Origin: Chondrosia reniformis
Lineage: Eukaryota > Porifera > Demospongiae > Chondrillida > Chondrillidae
Length of the DNA: 64,000 bases
Direction: 5' to 3'
NCBI GenBank assembly: GCA_947172415.1
Contig: OX359192.1
Span: forward strand, 5,768,501-5,832,500
In this document: piece after piece, positions 35,902-54,874 of the stretch
Layout of the letters: each line of letters starts with the position of its first letter
How positions within the stretch are numbered: position 1 is the stretch's first letter
Translations under genes and position numbers: made by a program
The notes under the pieces: generated by a model
Database searches by the model: none
Seen by the model: only the letters and a program-made list of their open reading frames with translations
Told to the model about the DNA's origin: nothing

Positions 35902-37945
35902 ATGGCAGAAAAGTTGAGACAACGGGGAAATCGTCTATATGTTCTAGGCAAATATGAACAAGCTATAACCTCATATACCGAAGCTATAGTGAGAAAACTG
36001 TTATAAATATACAGTGCCGTGGTGTCAATGAATATTGCATTTTGTAGGCTAAAAATCCCAAGTGCAGTGTATACTATACAAACAGGGCTCTCTCTCGAGC
36101 GCAGTTAAACATGTGGGAGGAAGTAGCGGAGGACTGTCAAGTGTCAATTGGTTTGGACCCAAAATCTGTCAAGGCTCACTTTTTTCTGGGTAAAGCACAA
36201 AGTCAAATGAGATTGTACGAAGATGCAGTAGCTACCTTGACAACAGGTGAGTATTTTACTATCCAACTTCAGTTGATAAGTTTAAAATTTATGTTTAGAC
36301 AACCTTGTATAATGATAATTTAAATGAGCTTCAGCAACACAATTTTGTCAATTTAAACGTTTCGACCCGGAGGTCTTCATCAACAATGAAAGAGGAGAAT
36401 AAAACCAAATAGTAAGGTGATGAGATTTATTGTATATAAAAACATTACTTATTCGTTTCCCATCACCCTTTCTATTTGGTTGTATTCTCCTCATTCATTG
36501 CTAATAAAGACTTCTGGGTCGAAACTTATAAATTGACAAAATGTTGCTGAGGTTCATTTAGGTGGGTGATGTGCACCTATATAAGGTTGAAATGAGAAGG
36601 ATTGTTTGTTGCGATCACACTGATTATATGGAGATTTAACTATCAGTTATATTATTACTTCTATTAGCACACACACTGGCAAGGGAACAAGGACAGAACT
36701 ATGGTGATGATATAGCCAGTGCTTTAAGAACAGCCCGAAGAATGGTAATTGCTGTATATATACAGTGCAATATATCATAGTAATTTATAGTATGTAATGT
36801 AATTAAATAATTCACGAGAATCTTGTGAACCAAATTAAATTTCAGAGAATTTAAGAGTTTCAAATAAAATAGTCAATTATGTCTCAGTTTCTCTATTAAC
36901 AGAGGTCAATTAAGTGATTATTCAAACCACCTAATGCATATTGTATATCAATAAATTTTATAATTCTATGGAATTTTATACTTGAAGTTTGAAGCAAGAA
37001 GAGCTCATAGAGCACAAACCCTGTGCAACGGGTGTGAAAGCTTTAATCTGTAGCATTGACTCTTCTGTAGAGATGGCAGGTTGAAGAAGAGCAGCATTCA
37101 AGGAAACAAGGAGAACTTGAAAGTTATATTTTGGAGTTGATGGAAGAAGATAAATCTAGGTAACTCTATTACAGTCTTCTATTGACCAAATCAACACTTG
37201 TGGTTCTTATATCAGTCTTCTATTGACCAAATCAACACTTGTGGTTCTTATATCAATCTTCTATTGAACAAATCAACACTTGTGGTTCTTATATCAACCA
37301 CTACTTTTACAAAGAAAATGTTTACTTTTGTCCTTGTGTAGGCAACTCTCATTGCTAAAGAACGATGACAGCAATGAAAGAGAAAAGATTCAACAAAAAC
37401 ATGTAATGTACCCTTAATTGCTTTCTCATATATTAAAATGTGTGTTTTGACGTGTAGAGAGAAAGGTCTTTGGAACTCCAAAAACTCTTTAGAGAAAGTG
37501 ATAAAAGGAGAGAAGTAAATTTACTCTTAACTTGTGTATGACTGAATACCCAATATCTGTTAATCTCCATAGCAACGAGAGATCCCTGAGTATCTGATTG
37601 GCAAGATTGGCTATGAATTATTGAAAGATCCAGTTATAGTACCAAGTGGAATAACGTAAGTTTTTTTATAATTACGTACGTAGATACAGCGTGTACTATA
37701 ATTATTCATGACATACCATATACGTATAGGTATGATCGACAGGTCCTAGAAGAACATTTAGAGGTAAAATGTGTGTCAGAGATGTATACCAAGTAAGGTA
37801 ATGTGGCTTCTGGTCGATATAGAGAGTTGGACACTTTGATCCTCTGACAAGAGAACCACTGGTAAAAAAGGAATTGATTCCTAACCTTGCATTGAAGGAG
37901 GTTTTGGATGCATTTGTGGCCGAGAATGGTTGGATGGAAGACTAA
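35902..37945 (+). CDS. STUB1: CHIP / STUB1, co-chaperone E3 ubiquitin ligase
   Basis: Nine exons (35902-35988, 36048-36246, 36668-36744, 37071-37159, 37342-37402, 37458-37514, 37573-37655, 37730-37763, 37823-37945) keep phase and give 269 residues. Three TPR units come first ([59 protein letters not shown]), which dock the C-terminal EEVD of Hsp70 and Hsp90. A charged helical linker follows, then a U-box ([45 protein letters not shown]) that recruits E2 enzymes to ubiquitinate chaperone clients. AATAAA overlaps the stop (37944-37949). Intron 2 hosts an inverted-repeat element. The human protein has 303 residues. Confidence 0.93.
36321..36560. mobile_element. 240-bp inverted-repeat element with hammerhead-like core in each arm
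   Basis: The outer ends are TAAATGAGCTTCAGCAAC and, inverted, TAAATGAACCTCAGCAAC. The arms pair over roughly 85-100 bp with scattered mismatches. No coding capacity, so MITE-like. The left arm on the minus strand (36383-36359) reads TTGATGA, stem GACC-TCCG-GGTC, GAAAC. The right arm on the plus strand (36501-36525) reads CTAATAA, AGACTTCTGGGTC, GAAAC. The two arms suggest an ancestral CTGATGA core in both. Confidence 0.7.
37172..37294. repeat. Three 41-bp tandem repeats in STUB1 intron 4
   Basis: Three near-identical 41-bp units (core CTTCTATTGACCAAATCAAC, followed by ACTTGTGGTTCTTATATCA). Confidence 0.92.
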
Positions 37946-39246: not shown

Positions 39247-40854
39247 ATGTGCTCTCGAAGTTCCGATAAACTAGTACAAGTGTTTCTATTGTCCACTGTT
39301 CTAGTAAGTGTGACTCATTTTCTATGCATAATAGATCCCTCAAGATTCACTTTCTAATATATGACACACAATTAGGTGCATACACAGTCTCAAGCTCTCA
39401 CCAGGATAATAAGTGAGATTTACTGTAACGTCTTCTCTAGTTGGTAACTTTAGGCAGTACAGCAATAGGGATTTGGACCTTGGCAGCAGTTATCAGGGAT
39501 CGAGTGTTACTTCCCACCGAAAAAGTAGCTGCAGCCAGCGCTCTCTTCGTTGTAGCTCTCTTGGGATGCCTCGCTACAGTCATTGGAGGACTGAGTACTA
39601 GGGTAACAAAACTGCTTCTATTAGTAAGTCAATTTGTAAGTAATTTTGTACTATTCTTACTTAACTGTAACTTTTGACTCAGTTCATAGGAATGATCATT
39701 ATTGTAATGTGTTTGCAAATTGGGATTACAGTCATGTATGCAATAACTGCATATCTCCCTGATGAGGTAAAGGATATCAAAAGCTGTACATGCATTCTAA
39801 GGTATTTATTAATGCTAATGAGAACACTTGCTATATATTTCTCAGATTCCTACTACAACAAGGACCTTATTAAAAGGATACATTAAAGCTGATGTTCAAA
39901 AAATGGATATAATTCAGAGTTCTTTAACTTGTTGTGGAGTTGATAATTACAGTGATTGGAGAAACAGTCCTTGGTATAATCAAAGTGAACACGGTCTAGC
40001 ACCAGAAACATGCTGTAAAGAAGACTTTGAAGACTGTAATTATAATCGCAGCAATCTCTTTGAAGGAGTAGGTCAATAGTTTGAATTAATTTTTAAGTCA
40101 CCTATATAAATAAATAACTTTAATCTTTTATAATCTTAATAAAATAATCTTTTGTACATAACTATATTTATCTTTTGTACATGGTCCTTCAAGGGTTGCT
40201 TACAGCCAATATTGGATAGAATTCACACAAATTCACTTGCAGTGATTTTATCAAACAGTCTGTTTGTCCTATTGGAAGTAAGTCAATGAATTCATTGAAA
40301 ATCTCCACACATCACACATGTACAGTTTAACCTATATATGAAACTATATATATGTATGTACATATAACAATAATAACTGTCTTGAACATCAGTAACACTT
40401 GTTTAATAGATTTAGAACATTTGATACAGACTTTTTCCATCATTTTTGCTGTTGAGAGCCTCCTGGTCAAAAGGTCAAAGTTTTCTAAACAAGTGCTATT
40501 AATATTCAGGACTATTATCACTAGTACACTTATCAATGGCAAGTAATAATAAAATTCAGCTATATTCAGCTGATGAAGGTCCACGAGACCGAAACATTCT
40601 GTAATAATTCATTTTATTTTTACTTGCCATTGATAAGCTCTAGAACTTTGATACTATAATTCGACTTGGCAATGAACCTCTATGATATAACTATTATCAC
40701 TAGTATTACAATGATCTCAGCTAGTATATACCCCTTATCGTGTGTGTATCTAATGTACAGGGCCTACACTCTATTTCTGCAGCTGATTATTGTGGTTGTT
40801 GCCTGTCAGCTATATTACTCTCTATGGAAGCATAGCAAATATGATGTCCTCTGA
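39247..40854 (+). CDS. Tetraspanin
   Basis: Six exons (39247-39303, 39441-39602, 39683-39766, 39846-40067, 40194-40277, 40783-40854) give 226 residues. There are four membrane helices: about residues 12-35, 50-70, 75-98 and 190-215. A large extracellular loop lies between helices 3 and 4. It carries the family CCG motif (LTCCGVDNYSDW), an ETCCKED pair, a further Cys and the pre-TM4 EGGCL, giving the six cysteines of typical members. N-glycosylation sites NQS and NRS are present. Tetraspanins organise membrane microdomains with integrins, which bind laminins; the laminin gene lies tail-to-tail next door. AATAAA lies at 40857-40862. Paralog not assignable. Intron 5 hosts a ribozyme-like element. 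Confidence 0.9.
40511..40705 (+). mobile_element. Hairpin element with hammerhead-ribozyme-like core
   Basis: Direct 16-bp repeats ACTATTATCACTAGTA (40511-40526 and 40690-40705) bracket a hairpin. Its 25-bp arms (40531-40555 and 40611-40635) match at 24 of 25 positions. Inside is CTGATGA (40570-40576), stem II GGTC-CACGA-GACC (40578-40590), GAAA (40591-40594), C, a five-base loop, then GTA (40601-40603) in the cleavage position with a two-pair stem III. Pairing next to the core in stem I is imperfect. It lies in tetraspanin intron 5. Confidence 0.65.
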
Positions 40855-40856
40855 GG

Positions 40857-40862
40857 AATAAA
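40857..40862 (+). terminator. Poly(A) signal of tetraspanin gene
   Basis: AATAAA three bases after the tetraspanin stop codon. The 3' end would fall in the 266-bp convergent gap to the laminin stop at 41121. Confidence 0.6.
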
Positions 40863-41120
40863 TTGTAACTGTGCGCTTGTTATTGTGATTGCAAAATGCA
40901 GTTTATCATTTTTTAACCTGAAGTTTCTACCCTTCACTTTCTTTCTGTTGGCAAAATATTATTCTAGTTATTGTTTGAGAAGAATATTCAACCAGTAATT
41001 TTGTATTTGTATTTAAGTGTGCTTATTGTATTAATACTGCACATCTTCAAATAGTTAAAGATGTATTGCTACAAATTATTCAAGTTTTCACTAAGTCTTA
41101 AACTTGGGAAGAAAGGCATG

Positions 41121-44100
41121 CTATGGCTGCAATCCAACTGGGCCCAGGTTGATACCTCTGCTGACAGACCCCTCAGGGAAGGAGGAGAATACAAGACCAA
41201 CAAAATTAGGGGCCTGACCGTCTGAATCCACAGCTCTTAAAATGTACACTTTTTCAATAGATTGTGCATTTTCAAAGTCTGTAAAGGAGCGAATAAACAT
41301 GTAAAGACTACAATAAAAATAAAAGTACAATAACTAATCACATCTCACCAGACAAAGGCAATCCGCCAAAGTAGACTTTAAGATTGTCAGTCCTACTGAG
41401 CTGTGATAAAGTGTTGCTACATCCACCCGTTGTGCAAACCTCTGCAGTCAAGTTCTTTTTGTGCAGTGTAAGAGACAGGTTTTTGATTTCAGAGCAATCT
41501 TCAGAGAGCAAGTTACCATCTTGCTCACTAGTTAAAACCTGCATATACCAAGATTGGGGTCAAGTAAGCATTCAATTTAATAAAGTAGGTCTACCCACTC
41601 ATTGAATGTGTCTTAGCTTAAAATAAAACTGTATACCTTTCCAAGTTTGAGTCCAACCACAAACAGAATTTCTGGTTCCATCTCTTCAACTTCATGTATA
41701 ACAGCTGCTAGCAAACCATTCTTTCGGATGGCACGCAATGACCAAGTCAACTTGTTATCAAAACTGGTAACTGAAAGAAAAAGACAAACTGAAATAAACT
41801 CAAGCAATCACGCACAGAAGAGGAACCACACACCAACATGAGCAGTTCCATCAAAGTAGTATCCAGTGGATGTGGTATAGCAAGGGAGTCCGGTTCTCAA
41901 TCTGCTATATTATATATAAGCAGAAATAATTAGACATACGTATATGTACAGTTGTGTGCATGACTGTAGTCCAGTACCCAACCATTGCCCACTGACTTGA
42001 TAGCGCTCTCCCCTGAAACACTTAATCCATCCATGCAGCCAACAAAACTATACAAGTCGTCCTTAAGTTGTAACACAGAAACACACACATTATTAATAGC
42101 AGTAACAGCTTCCACAGTTAATGGTAAGCACACACCTCCAGTGCATTTTCCAGGGCTGTTGCTGATCCAAATATAACGGGCCACTCTGGGACAAACTGCT
42201 GTCTCCTAGCAACCATCAATGAAGTGTGATTATTTAGGGAACAACTAAATATGTTTTCCATTCCCTTACAAGACAATCTCTGATGCATATGAAGAACAAA
42301 TTAGATGCTTCAGTCACTGTCCATTCAGCTAGCTATAGAACTACCCTGCCACTTACCACATTCATGTTCCCATCTGGACAATAAGTTGCTGATAAAGTGG
42401 CAGAACTGTTATAGCTGTTCTTTACAGCCATAAAAATACATTTGTCATGAGTAGCAAGGAGTGTAATTATCTCTCCTAGTTTTGACTTCAAGGACAATAT
42501 ATGGGAGTGTGTAAAGAAAGATGCACTATGAGTAGAGGTAATCGAGCTATCCACCATTTCAAGATTCAGTAGAGATATTTTAAACTCCAAATGAAAACTA
42601 AAACAAGAATAGAAATATACATACAGTATATAAGTATCTACCATATTAGGAAAACCAATTATGGCAAGATGAAAACAACATACATAGTCCCAAGCAACAC
42701 TTGTTACAATCAACACATATCCCATCCTAATAACAGGGGCTTACTCTTCAAAGAAAGGTATTGTGTTGTAAAATTTAAGAGTGGTACCAACTGTAAATCC
42801 TCCAACAGATGCCTCCTGTTCAACCTGACTCAAGCATTCATCCTCCTTCAGCTGAATAGGGTATCTCAAAGTGATGTTGGGGAGTAGAGTGTGGTACTGT
42901 GAACTGGGACACTGGTAATAGGTTGCGTTACTTGAAGTGACAGCTTTTGAAAAGAAGTCTACCGGACTAAAGAACAGAAACCTCTCAGTCATGACAAGGT
43001 ACATATAGTATGTAAAACATGATCCAGATATTAATATAGCAGATACTCTGCAACCCAACTTCAAAATGGCACCTGTACCCTGGCACCTGTACCCTGGCAC
43101 CTGTACCCTGGCACCTGTACCCTGGAACCTGTACCCTGGCACCTGTACCCTGGCACCTGTACCCTGGAACCTGTACCCTGGCACCTGTACCCTGGCACCT
43201 GTAGCCTGGAACCTGTACCCTGGCACCTGTACCCTGGCACCTGTACCCTGGAACCTGTACCCTGGCACCTGTACCCTGGCACCTGTACCCTGGCACCTGT
43301 ACCCTGGAACCTGTACCCTGGCACCTGTACCCTGGCACCTGTACCCTGGCACCTGTACCCTGGCACCTGTACCCTGGCACCCCGAGGGTAAACTTACTTG
43401 TTAGTAACAACAAAGTCTCTAAGGCAACCACTGAAAGTAGGCATCCTTTGATCTGGTTCTGAACCCAGCCACATAACTGGTATAGTAATGTCTCCTTTAT
43501 TCTTAACAAAGACACTCCACCCTGCTGGGATGTTACGTTGGTCCATTAGTTGATTGTCAAAGTACAAACTAAACATTCCATTGGCATAGTTTAGGAGAAT
43601 AAAAACTTGATGCCAAGTGTCTTCTATTATAGGGTTAGCCCGTGTTTCAAGCTGAACTTTAGAAGACCCTTCACTGATCTCAACTTGAAGTGCACCATTA
43701 TTGATAAGAAGTTTAAGTTGGGAACTCTGTAAATTAAAAAGGCATAGTCTAATTATATGTACAATACCTAAAACACTGTATCCAGTCCCATTTGAAAAAA
43801 TGAAAATGGAAAACATACAGAAGTCTACCAACTCACCTGCATCGCATCAGCTATATAAAAGATGCAGCCACTTTGAACACTGTCAGCTCTGAATGACAGA
43901 GATAGTGAGTCATACTGTGTCATAGTAGGAGCATTAACTATATTCATTAGTTCAACAGTCTTGAGATCTTGATACTCCAAATACCCTTGACTGAGTCCAA
44001 CCTCTCGGGCATAGGCCTACCCCAAGAAATGGAGAGAAGAGCTGAAAGTGCACACTTTAAATTGACAATACACTCCAAAGTCAATACCAACGATTGTTGT

Positions 44101-53100: not shown

Positions 53101-54874
53101 CACAAGGGAGGGCAGATCCAGTAGTGTTTACTTCATAGGGAAAATTGTTGTAAAGTGGACAACAACGCTCACAGCTTTGACCACAAGTATTTCCCTGACA
53201 CTCACAACTGTACTGACCCGTAATTAGATCTTCAGGACAGCTGGTGGCAAAACCATTACAGTTACAAATTGCAAACAGCTGCAACTCACTAATTGCCACT
53301 CGATTCTAAAGAAAAAAGTATGTAATGTAGTCAAAATGGAGATGAAAACTCAAGAAAACAGCAAAACTTACTGGAGGCAAATCCAAGAGCTCTGATGGTA
53401 CCTTGTACTCAAAATAGAGTCTCACATAGCTTGCCTTTAAAAACGACTGCAGTAAAAGATATTTTATGTGTAACTGCTAGATAGTTTGTCACTAATCAGT
53501 GGAGAAGAAGTGTCAGCTATAAAATGACCACTGAATATCCTATCCATCCATCGCTGATGAAGACCCTCAGGGTCGAAACGTTCTACCAAAAGATTTATAA
53601 AGCCAAACTGCGTTTTTAGATGCTCAAAGAGTCGAAAGATGTACCATCTAAAAGATAAGTTCGACGCAATTAGGAGAAATCCTTATTCTAAAACCCATCA
53701 CAATGGCCAAACAAAAAGATTAGTATTAGGAATGTGTGTGTGTGTATGTGAACATAAATAAATAGATACATAAGAAATTTGATGCTTTTCCAATCTAAAC
53801 ATGAAGTATGCAAAAGGCAATATGATCAGTCTGCCGCTGTATAAACTACACAGTGTGGGTAGAATCCTTATGTAAACTGTGTCACAGTTGAATGGTAATA
53901 AGTGACCATGTGTTATCATCACACAGCCCCCATGCACTGCTCCCACCACCAGACCCACAGATTAGACATCCAATGGTACCTCCACACCAATCTCAGCTGT
54001 TTACATGTGTTTGGAGCTCACCATCAGTTCCACATTGGTTGCTAACTCAGTAGCTCCCACTCGATTGTCTAACAGAGGAATTGACAGACCACTCTGGAGT
54101 TGAGAAAGGAGAAGGCTACTAACATTAAGTGTGTGATAATGTCTTTCAACAGTTAATTCATTGAGATTACATTTCACTGTAACATTTTGACAAAATACAC
54201 TTAGACCATTGTTCTATTGCACGGACAGCAACAAATTACATGTAGCTATAGACGGACACTTTTCTCTTCACTATACCAATATTCACATACATTGGCTACA
54301 TTATCTAGCTCTATCGCAATAGACTAACAGTAAAATCCACTAAGTTATACGGATCATCGGAACAAAGGACTTGATCATCCATGATCAGATCCACAGAGGA
54401 GTGACTGATATTTCTAGAGAAGAAAGATCCTTCTGGACAATCCAAGTTACTTGTTACGAACACTACCAATGTTCTGTACGTGACTCCGTCAAGGGATGTC
54501 TGCAGCTCCCAGTTGAAGGGTATGCTGGGTGTGTCTCTAGTCTTTGGCTGAGGGATATACCGCAAGCTGGACAGGAAATACTCTTGCTCCAGTTTGATCG
54601 TATAGGTCAAACTGGCATTTGCAACACGAAATATTCCGGATACCCAGGCCGTTGACTCGTCTCCGTCAACAGCAAGATCTGGTGCAAAAGTCTGACCGGC
54701 GCATGATCTCCCGTTGAAGCTCTCTCCATTACCACAAGTGCTTGAAGCAGAAATGGGAAAATCTTCTGCATTAATTTTACGTCTATTGGAAAGTATACTC
54801 CTTCCTTTGGTATTGGGAAGGAAGGAGGTAAGCGTCGCTAGAACGACAATGAAGACGATTCTTTTCTGCAACAT
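41121..54874 (-). CDS. Laminin alpha-like chain
   Basis: A many-exon gene with a full laminin alpha layout. A signal peptide opens at ATG 54874 (MLQKRIVFIVVLATLTSFLP). A divergent LamNT module follows (about 54780-53270: ISASSTCGNG, AVDGDESTAWVSG, ending NRVAISELQLFAICNCNG). Then come about nine laminin EGF repeats (about 53270-50430, CxCxxxG...C patterns such as CDCKASFSGELCDSC), a long heptad-rich coiled-coil stretch (about 49900-46690, few Cys), and five LG-like modules (about 46640-41121). No laminin IV domain is seen. Alpha chains join beta and gamma chains through the coiled coil, and LG modules bind cell-surface receptors. Stop at 41121-41123. An upstream micro-frame MNWW* precedes the ATG. 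The exon list is incomplete, and individual LG borders are approximate. Introns are rich in minisatellites. Confidence 0.85.
43066..43381. repeat. 14-bp minisatellite in laminin intron
   Basis: About 22 copies of CCTGGCACCTGTAC with A/C variants (GGAACC versus GGCACC). Because 14 is not a multiple of 3, every frame repeats every 42 bp, and no frame of the unit meets a stop. The long frames seen here are therefore artefacts. It ends beside the acceptor-side flank of the exon near 43400. Confidence 0.95.
46863..47054. repeat. 22-bp tandem repeat in laminin intron
   Basis: Nine units of ACAGAGTACATAGATACCTC plus two bases. The first two units carry GCG...ATATC variants. Confidence 0.95.
49353..49381 (-). 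ncRNA. Degenerate hammerhead-like core (minus strand)
   Basis: Read on the minus strand: CTGATGA, AGGGCCTAGTTACC, AAAATGTC. The GAAA box has decayed to AAAA and stem II is weak. It lies in a laminin intron. Confidence 0.3.
50338..50392 (-). repeat. Dispersed ~55-bp repeat, copy C
   Basis: The reverse complement contains CTTACTGTAGAAT and TATGTAGGAAAATGGTG. It is the closest match to copy E. It lies in a laminin intron. Confidence 0.6.
51330..51535. repeat. CA-rich microsatellite in laminin intron
   Basis: Imperfect array of CACACTCACCACACACATGT and CACATTCTC blocks. It runs into the following EGF-repeat exon on its right. Confidence 0.9.
52711..52768 (-). repeat. Dispersed ~55-bp repeat, copy D
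   Basis: The reverse complement contains CTTTTACTGTGAAGTAG and GTATGTAGGAAAATGGTC. It lies in a laminin intron. Confidence 0.6.
53553..53578 (+). ncRNA. Hammerhead-like core in laminin intron
   Basis: CTGATGA (53553-53559), A, stem II GACCC-TCA-GGGTC (53561-53573), GAAA (53574-53577), C. Core and stem II are perfect. Stem I and a cleavage triplet are not clear. A second small hairpin (TTTTTAGATG with CATCTAAAAG) follows at about 53611-53653. Confidence 0.5.

Follow-up and report, generated by a model that had tools for sequence, protein, structure and literature searches.

The window, a stretch of 64,000 nucleotides on contig C4 of the Chondrosia reniformis genome, contains a tetraspanin gene, one exon of which (39822-40079, plus strand; PF00335, E 2.9e-11) encodes the large extracellular loop and lies upstream of a short insert on the same strand. 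The insert occupies 40527-40689 (163 bp) within an intron that extends from about 40279 to 40758. The initial annotation had placed it in a tetraspanin intron, and the same-strand exon upstream supports this, with the intron limits drawn by eye from splice-like signals. Exact 16-bp direct repeats flank the insert as target-site duplications, ACTATTATCACTAGTA at 40511-40526 on the left and its copy at 40690-40705 on the right, and none of 200 shuffles of the right flank equalled the repeat. Between them lie two inverted arms of 27 nt that are 96% complementary. If the element is numbered from the A of the ATG in its CTGATGA motif (+1), the right hairpin arm (40611-40637, plus strand) is element +39 to +65, the left inverted arm (40529-40555, minus strand) is the reverse complement of that segment, and the stretch 40573-40689 (plus strand), which includes the right arm, runs from +1 to +117, the commonest right end of the window family; we assign this part below to the 3' end of a Penelope-like element (PLE). 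Both the inverted arms and the direct repeats of the initial annotation are real. There are no tandem copies of the element in 40301-40950. Further along the window, at 43009-43404, a short tandem repeat leaves several frames open on both strands and adjoins minus-strand ORF pieces that by eye resemble a laminin G domain.

The insert carries a minimal type I hammerhead-like core of the PLE class at 40562-40606 (plus strand). The nucleotides of this and all other cores are numbered by the hammerhead convention. The CTGATGA motif (C3-A9, 40570-40576), a four-pair stem II (40578-40590; GGTC/GACC around the loop CACGA, with 40578-40581 pairing with 40587-40590), and GAAA (40591-40594) are present where the initial annotation had seen them, so that CUGANGA and GAAA stand around stem II as a minimal PLE-type hammerhead requires. 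What had been overlooked is the extra unpaired A at 40577, at the junction of A9 and stem II. The 3' side of the core reads GAAAC, then AT and T (40591-40598), which supplies the stem III letters ACAU, where most relatives have ACGU, and H17 (T40598), preceded by T40597 (U16.1). The cut is predicted between 40598 and 40599, after H17. When it is set there, after ACAT-T, the 5' strand of stem I (ATTCAG, 40564-40569) pairs with CTG(T)AAT (40599-40605) as CAG/CTG, one bulged T, and ATT/AAT, and the window copy fits both stems with a single bulge. The pairing beside the core, which had been judged poor, is not poor in this register. Other details of the first description do not survive: GTA, proposed for the cleavage position, stands there in 1 of 55 cores, and the predicted cut follows A-C-G-U-H17. 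The two-pair stem III with a five-base loop was wrong, stem III being mostly a palindromic ACGU that would fit a dimer.

The whole genome (117,379,552 bases in 15 contigs) was searched for similar cores. The pattern CTGANGA..CGAAACGT, with 7-22 letters between its halves, gave 1170 matches against 9 in a reversed control, and the same pattern without GT gave 1889 against 230, while CTGATGAAG..CGAAAC matched at 492 places against 1. Among 100 listed of the 1170 matches, the letter after A9 was A in 97, G in 2, and T in 1, and core position 7 was T in 46, A in 37, G in 14, and C in 3. The best stem II began one letter after A9 in 88 of these 100 cores, five letters after it in 8, two in 2, and directly in 2. 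The canonical register of stem II was tried for the class and rejected, as it gave four or more consecutive pairs in none of the 100 listed cores, compared with 82 when stem II began one letter later. One or more unpaired nucleotides following A9 are nearly universal in the PLE class.

For a closer comparison, 55 cores were fetched, which came from 46 loci (L107-L152; L146 was dropped because its stem was too short) and, for another 10 rows, from loci found with a pattern favouring GGTC/GACC; 40 of the 46 loci were hand-picked for variety from the 100 listed CTGANGA..CGAAACGT places and 6 were taken from CTGATGAAG pattern places. The first four pairs of stem I form in 54, 47, 44, and 36 of the 55 cores, each above all 2000 shuffles, and pairs five to seven are not above the shuffles. 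H17, which no search pattern fixed, is T in 38 cores and C in 17, that is, T or C in all 55. An alignment (A1) was made of 50 of these cores (49 distinct), with L084, L085, L093, L099, and L101 left out and the window-family copies L009-L046 absent. In it, 88.9% of the stem cells are paired, which falls to 52.8% or 39.7% when the partner is slid by one column, and the covariation is 0.623 compared with 0.256 after shuffling, a score that 0 of 500 shuffles reached. Two-sided changes occur in 8 of 9 pairs, a count that 27 of the 500 shuffles also reached. Stems I and II covary.

The letters ahead of H17 are GT in 47 of the 55 fetched cores, and this predominance of ACGT was partly imposed, because 39 of the rows were chosen with GT in the pattern. 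The 16 cores picked without it have GT in 8, AT in 6 (as in the window), CT in 1, and TT in 1, and GT comes next after CGAAAC at 39 of the 51 CTGATGAAG..CGAAAC places on contig C1. In the window family itself, the 21 cores readable by motif search have ACGT (9), ATGT (4), ACAT (3), or other letters (5), a spread that looks like CpG decay. These counts indicate that ACGU is common rather than fixed.

An alternative reading of such cores is a conserved plain hairpin without any ribozyme, since GAUG pairs with CGUU in the minimum-energy fold predicted for a single core, and ViennaRNA favoured a fold of this kind in the six cores tested. A hairpin of this kind needs a pair between position 7 and G16.2, but 51 of the 100 listed cores have A or G at position 7, the variation expected if this is the free position of CUGANGA, and both stems of the hammerhead covary. 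The constancy of the other core letters is no evidence on either side, because the search patterns fixed them. We regard the plain hairpin as very unlikely. In the hammerhead reading, an intact ribozyme of this class would have stems I and II, an additional nucleotide behind A9, and the palindromic ACGU. This palindrome would most likely supply stem III by pairing with its counterpart in another core, and the resulting double hammerhead may cut after H17. The calculated energy of the double hammerhead was -0.8 kcal/mol for the window core compared with -8.9 to -30.7 in five other cores, a gap that is overstated because the calculation disallowed the bulge and so used three stem I pairs for the window core. 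The double hammerhead was the lowest-energy fold in none of the six cores, and it did not beat the monomer folds. The predicted energies of these six cores speak against a simple dimer account and are consistent with the reported need of a protein for cleavage in the lizard element PAc, discussed below. For the window copy, ACAU in place of the common ACGU means that two of the four trans stem III pairs are lost, and judging from its letters this copy, a relic with a damaged trans stem III, is probably impaired in self-cleavage. The initial annotation had likewise supposed that the copy may be inactive, and we agree with this, although the reason is now the ACAU where most relatives have ACGU and not the pairing in stem I.

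A covariance model of 45 positions (R1) was built from the 50 cores of A1, with the window core held out, and it recovered the window core (40562-40606) with 49.2 bits and an E-value of 4.2e-11. Two further cores in the window, missed by the initial annotation, were found at 53546-53590 (plus strand, 44.9 bits) and 36391-36348 (minus strand, 40.0 bits), the next match having 15 bits. In the 38 sister loci of the window family, R1 gave 20 matches in 19 loci at E-values up to 0.05. The Rfam hammerhead models (RF00163, RF02275, and others) gave no match above the gathering threshold in the window, where the best score for the core was that of HH9 (13.1 bits at 40552-40621, cut-off 52), and in 11 sister loci Rfam reached 19 bits at best, with none above threshold. 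The Infernal check that had been proposed for this feature was therefore negative with Rfam (HH9 at 13.1 bits against 52) and positive with the genome-derived model. The Rfam release used misses the PLE-class cores in the window and in the 11 sister loci and a 45-position model derived from the genome finds the class, which points to a practical gap in its detection. As to the surroundings of the two further cores, 36321-36560 is a second PLE-like fold-back in the window. Its two cores face outwards, that on the minus strand (36391-36348) with 40.0 bits and that on the plus strand (36493-36536) with 13.5 bits (E 0.56), and they lie in 83-nt arms that are 84% complementary, with additional 19-nt outer arms. 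The core at 53546-53590, the third of the PLE class in the window, is solitary, and inverted arms were not found around it in 53400-53800.

The search of the genome for further copies, which had also been suggested at the outset, was successful. BLASTN with 221 bases against the sponge's own genome gave 58 matches, counting the window itself and reversed pieces, in addition to the 492 and 1170 core-pattern matches described above. In the 38 further stretches that were fetched, many copies of the window family (family 1) share a 3' end like ..GAACCTCTAYGATATAA and differ in their upstream start points, and some open with part of their own middle in reversed orientation. A loose core pattern led to a second family (family 2) with outward-facing pairs of cores. 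All six of the longer family-2 loci scanned have reverse transcriptase (RT) and/or endonuclease ORFs between or beside the cores, with a motif, identified by eye, of the form CxxCxxVYIGxT..EH, which we take to be typical of the Penelope-like GIY-YIG endonuclease. Pfam scored RVT_1 in family 2 at 23.6 and 24.4 bits, below its cut-off of 29.6, and did not call GIY-YIG on the family-2 ORFs, and no match to the PLE ORF was found in the PDB. When two PLE proteins were used as queries, they gave at least 88 and at least 90 genome matches, and among the matches listed on contigs C1 and C2, 7 of 10 RT places were followed by a core on the same strand, 95-242 nt further downstream. At the other 3 of these 10 places, a core of the pattern used was not found; on C2 the comparison took only cores of the CTGATGAAG pattern, and on C1 only cores no more than 30 kb from an RT place.

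For family 1, the connection to PLEs is through coding remnants. Three family-1 places have a sense-strand match to the C-terminal part of a PLE protein from a third family (L106), some 100-170 nt upstream of the core. They are L007/L014 (59% identity, E 3e-7 to 8e-7), L002/L049 (E 2e-6), and L008 (E 2.9e-6), and about 40-100 C-terminal residues of a PLE are recognisable there. Because such remnants stand upstream of family-1 cores, we read the window insert as the 5'-shortened 3' end of a PLE; the window copy itself ends before any coding part. No full-length autonomous family-1 copy was found, and among the matches listed a PLE RT was seen by eye near family-1 copies only at the related copy L046/L084 on C1. 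It is highly probable, in our judgement, that the feature goes back to an endonuclease-bearing PLE whose 3' end was inserted here, truncated on its 5' side, and has since decayed. The initial annotation had rightly drawn a link to the short-stem-III hammerheads of PLEs, which now has behind it the remnants upstream in longer copies, the RT genes beside sister cores, and the covarying stems. Its small mobile ribozyme cassette gives way to a truncated PLE end, in which the arms given as 25 bp are the inverted second end of the insertion and not stem I. Several other places deserve mention for their own sake. A Pfam RVT_1 place at C11:2431764-2432513 lies about 1.3 kb from family-1 copy L025 on the other strand. 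L090 (C4:4106901-4114100) is a head-to-head PLE pair with a direct core before and after each ORF and its outermost cores about 6 kb apart. A 5.4-kb array on contig C7 (L047 and L048, C7:666501-686500) was considered as a tandem of PLEs and rejected; the repeated unit is instead a different gene in which pieces of the element are embedded, with a period of about 5.4 kb, gene ORFs of more than 500 aa, and four window-element fragments at that spacing.

The ends of the insertions bear on how they may have arisen. In family 2, all eight fetched insertions have one end at +83 to +89 and the other at +118 to +125 from the ATG, and all eight have candidate target duplications of 12-18 nt with 0-2 mismatches, which possibly overlap the element ends. 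In family 1, the right ends of 39 copies lie at +108 to +117 in 28, at +77 to +88 in 8, and shorter in 3, with the reservation that the reference stops at +117, so that later ends are invisible, although the flanks do differ beyond that point. The left inverted arm occurs in 13 of these 39 copies, the window included. Its end lies at +79 to +87 or at +117 in 10 of the 13 and at +16, +52, and +65 in the other three, the last being the window copy, whose left end is at neither RT start site. Copy L034, with its ends at +84 and +88, is an exception to the rule of unlike ends. Of the 13 left-arm copies, 4 were found to have a target duplication, which is exact only in the window (16 of 16 bp). The window copy has the marks of a PLE insertion, namely an inverted pseudo-LTR (pLTR) partner with a tail and a target duplication of variable length, and this anatomy recurs in the genome. 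Outward-facing inverted pairs with variable interiors would also suit a MITE-like DNA transposon with terminal inverted repeats, but the longer inverted pairs enclose RT/endonuclease ORFs of PLEs, the two ends of an insertion terminate at distinct positions, and the copies share a 3' end while their 5' truncations fall at many points. We consider a MITE-like transposon extremely improbable.

A further candidate is a metazoan retrozyme, a small element, non-autonomous and equipped with a canonical type I hammerhead, that propagates by way of circular RNA, and retrozyme-like elements do occur in this genome. The pattern CTGANGAG..CGAAAC gave 342 matches compared with 48 reversed, most of which, among 100 listed, are without the extra nucleotide, some being PLE-class cores with an extra G. 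Rfam Hammerhead_1 (cut-off 34) scored 34.6-41.6 bits in four of five fetched canonical loci and 25.2 in the fifth, and one of these loci, L153, carries a tandem array of 359-bp units. The window core, by contrast, has the extra A, it has ACAU where four of the five canonical loci have a stem III of the form AC-AGCT-GT, its best score with an Rfam hammerhead is the 13.1 bits given above, and the copy is not tandem. Longer family-1 copies contain PLE coding sequence, and the family-1 copies seen so far fit PLE coding ends without tandem monomers. A retrozyme is quite unlikely on this evidence, and we retain the truncated PLE insertion. Within the canonical class, L153 1-1450 (C4:3837301-3838750) consists of four 359-bp units whose canonical type I hammerheads score 34.6 bits each with Rfam, and is retrozyme-like. 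L157 has a long inverted repeat (236-388) between two outward-facing canonical hammerheads, with sub-cut-off scores for several microRNA precursor models that probably reflect only the shape of a long hairpin.

Much of what is seen here has precedents in the available parts of the papers cited. Minimal hammerheads in the pseudo-LTRs of PLEs that cleave as dimers have been published (PMC7761336, PMC6466107, PMC6155905), and the published minimal type I hammerheads of PLEs (the same papers and PMC7229834) agree with the cores described here in the lack of a proper helix III, the dimer logic, the site in the pseudo-LTR, and the many dispersed copies. Inverted pLTRs, tails, and dimer-acting PLE hammerheads are already known, and the window is a further case. 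The review PMC7761336, in the part available, does not treat sponges and calls the role of PLE hammerheads unknown. In PAc, the Poseidon element of Anolis carolinensis, reverse transcription starts 111-118 bp into the ORF, both target strands are cut, an optional tail of 30-40 bp is the stretch between two RT start sites, and cleavage by the hammerhead needs protein, while insertion in vitro proceeds without a need for hammerhead activity (PMC11167929). Our elements resemble PAc in an ORF that begins at the hammerhead, in the region of the RT start, and in the tail and the proposed two-strand cleavage. They differ in their sponge host and in that all eight family-2 insertions have one end at each of the two sites, whereas in PAc the strands were not seen to differ in start site (PMC11167929). 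In Penelope elements of Adineta vaga (PMC3846280), an inverted pLTR likewise lies beside a direct one, and one inverted pLTR has a 31-bp tail, but the target duplications are 8-10 bp compared with 16 bp in the window; the word hammerhead is absent from the available text of that paper. An extra A between A9 and G10.1, as in the window, is found in the plus-strand hammerhead of the chrysanthemum chlorotic mottle viroid (PMC3705267), a viroid and therefore an unrelated context. The non-LTR retrozymes of metazoans (PMC7229834), with animal repeats of 150-450 bp that contain type I hammerheads, have this ribozyme type in common with the window, and similar elements occur in the genome (L153-L157). 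As L153 shows with its canonical core, which lacks the extra nucleotide, and its tandem 359-bp units, they are unlike the window class.

On the strength of the insertion ends and of the published lizard PLE, we propose the following route. The PLE transcript bears the minimal type I hammerhead in its pseudo-LTR, overlapping the start of the ORF. The RT/endonuclease of the element may nick both target strands, and reverse transcription would then begin at an internal position of the RNA, near +85 or near +117 counted from the ATG. Priming on both strands would give the insertion inverted ends that face outwards on either side, and the target would carry a short duplication. In the window, the right end would have begun at +117 and the left arm would reach +65, giving the hairpin between the 16-bp repeats. 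Two-strand priming is what we infer from the unlike inverted ends, and a part of the ribozyme itself in insertion is likewise suggested rather than seen.

Taken together, a tentative and somewhat doubtful joint reading would be that two hammerhead classes coexist in this genome and can be told apart at the stem II junction. The PLE class would have the unpaired nucleotide after A9 and a mostly self-complementary ACGU that closes stem III only with a partner RNA, the retrozyme-like class would be without the additional nucleotide, and the extra residue may be an adaptation to a protein-assisted dimer. In the same reading, each PLE insertion would use two internal RT start sites separated by about 34 nt, each serving one target strand, with the inverted ends recording the two-strand priming. 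In a compact genome of 117 Mb, this sponge combines several PLE families, both decayed and open, with sharply defined insertion ends and with canonical hammerheads as a second class, and it is a good place to ask what role the ribozyme of PLEs plays and why its dimer-like form has been kept.
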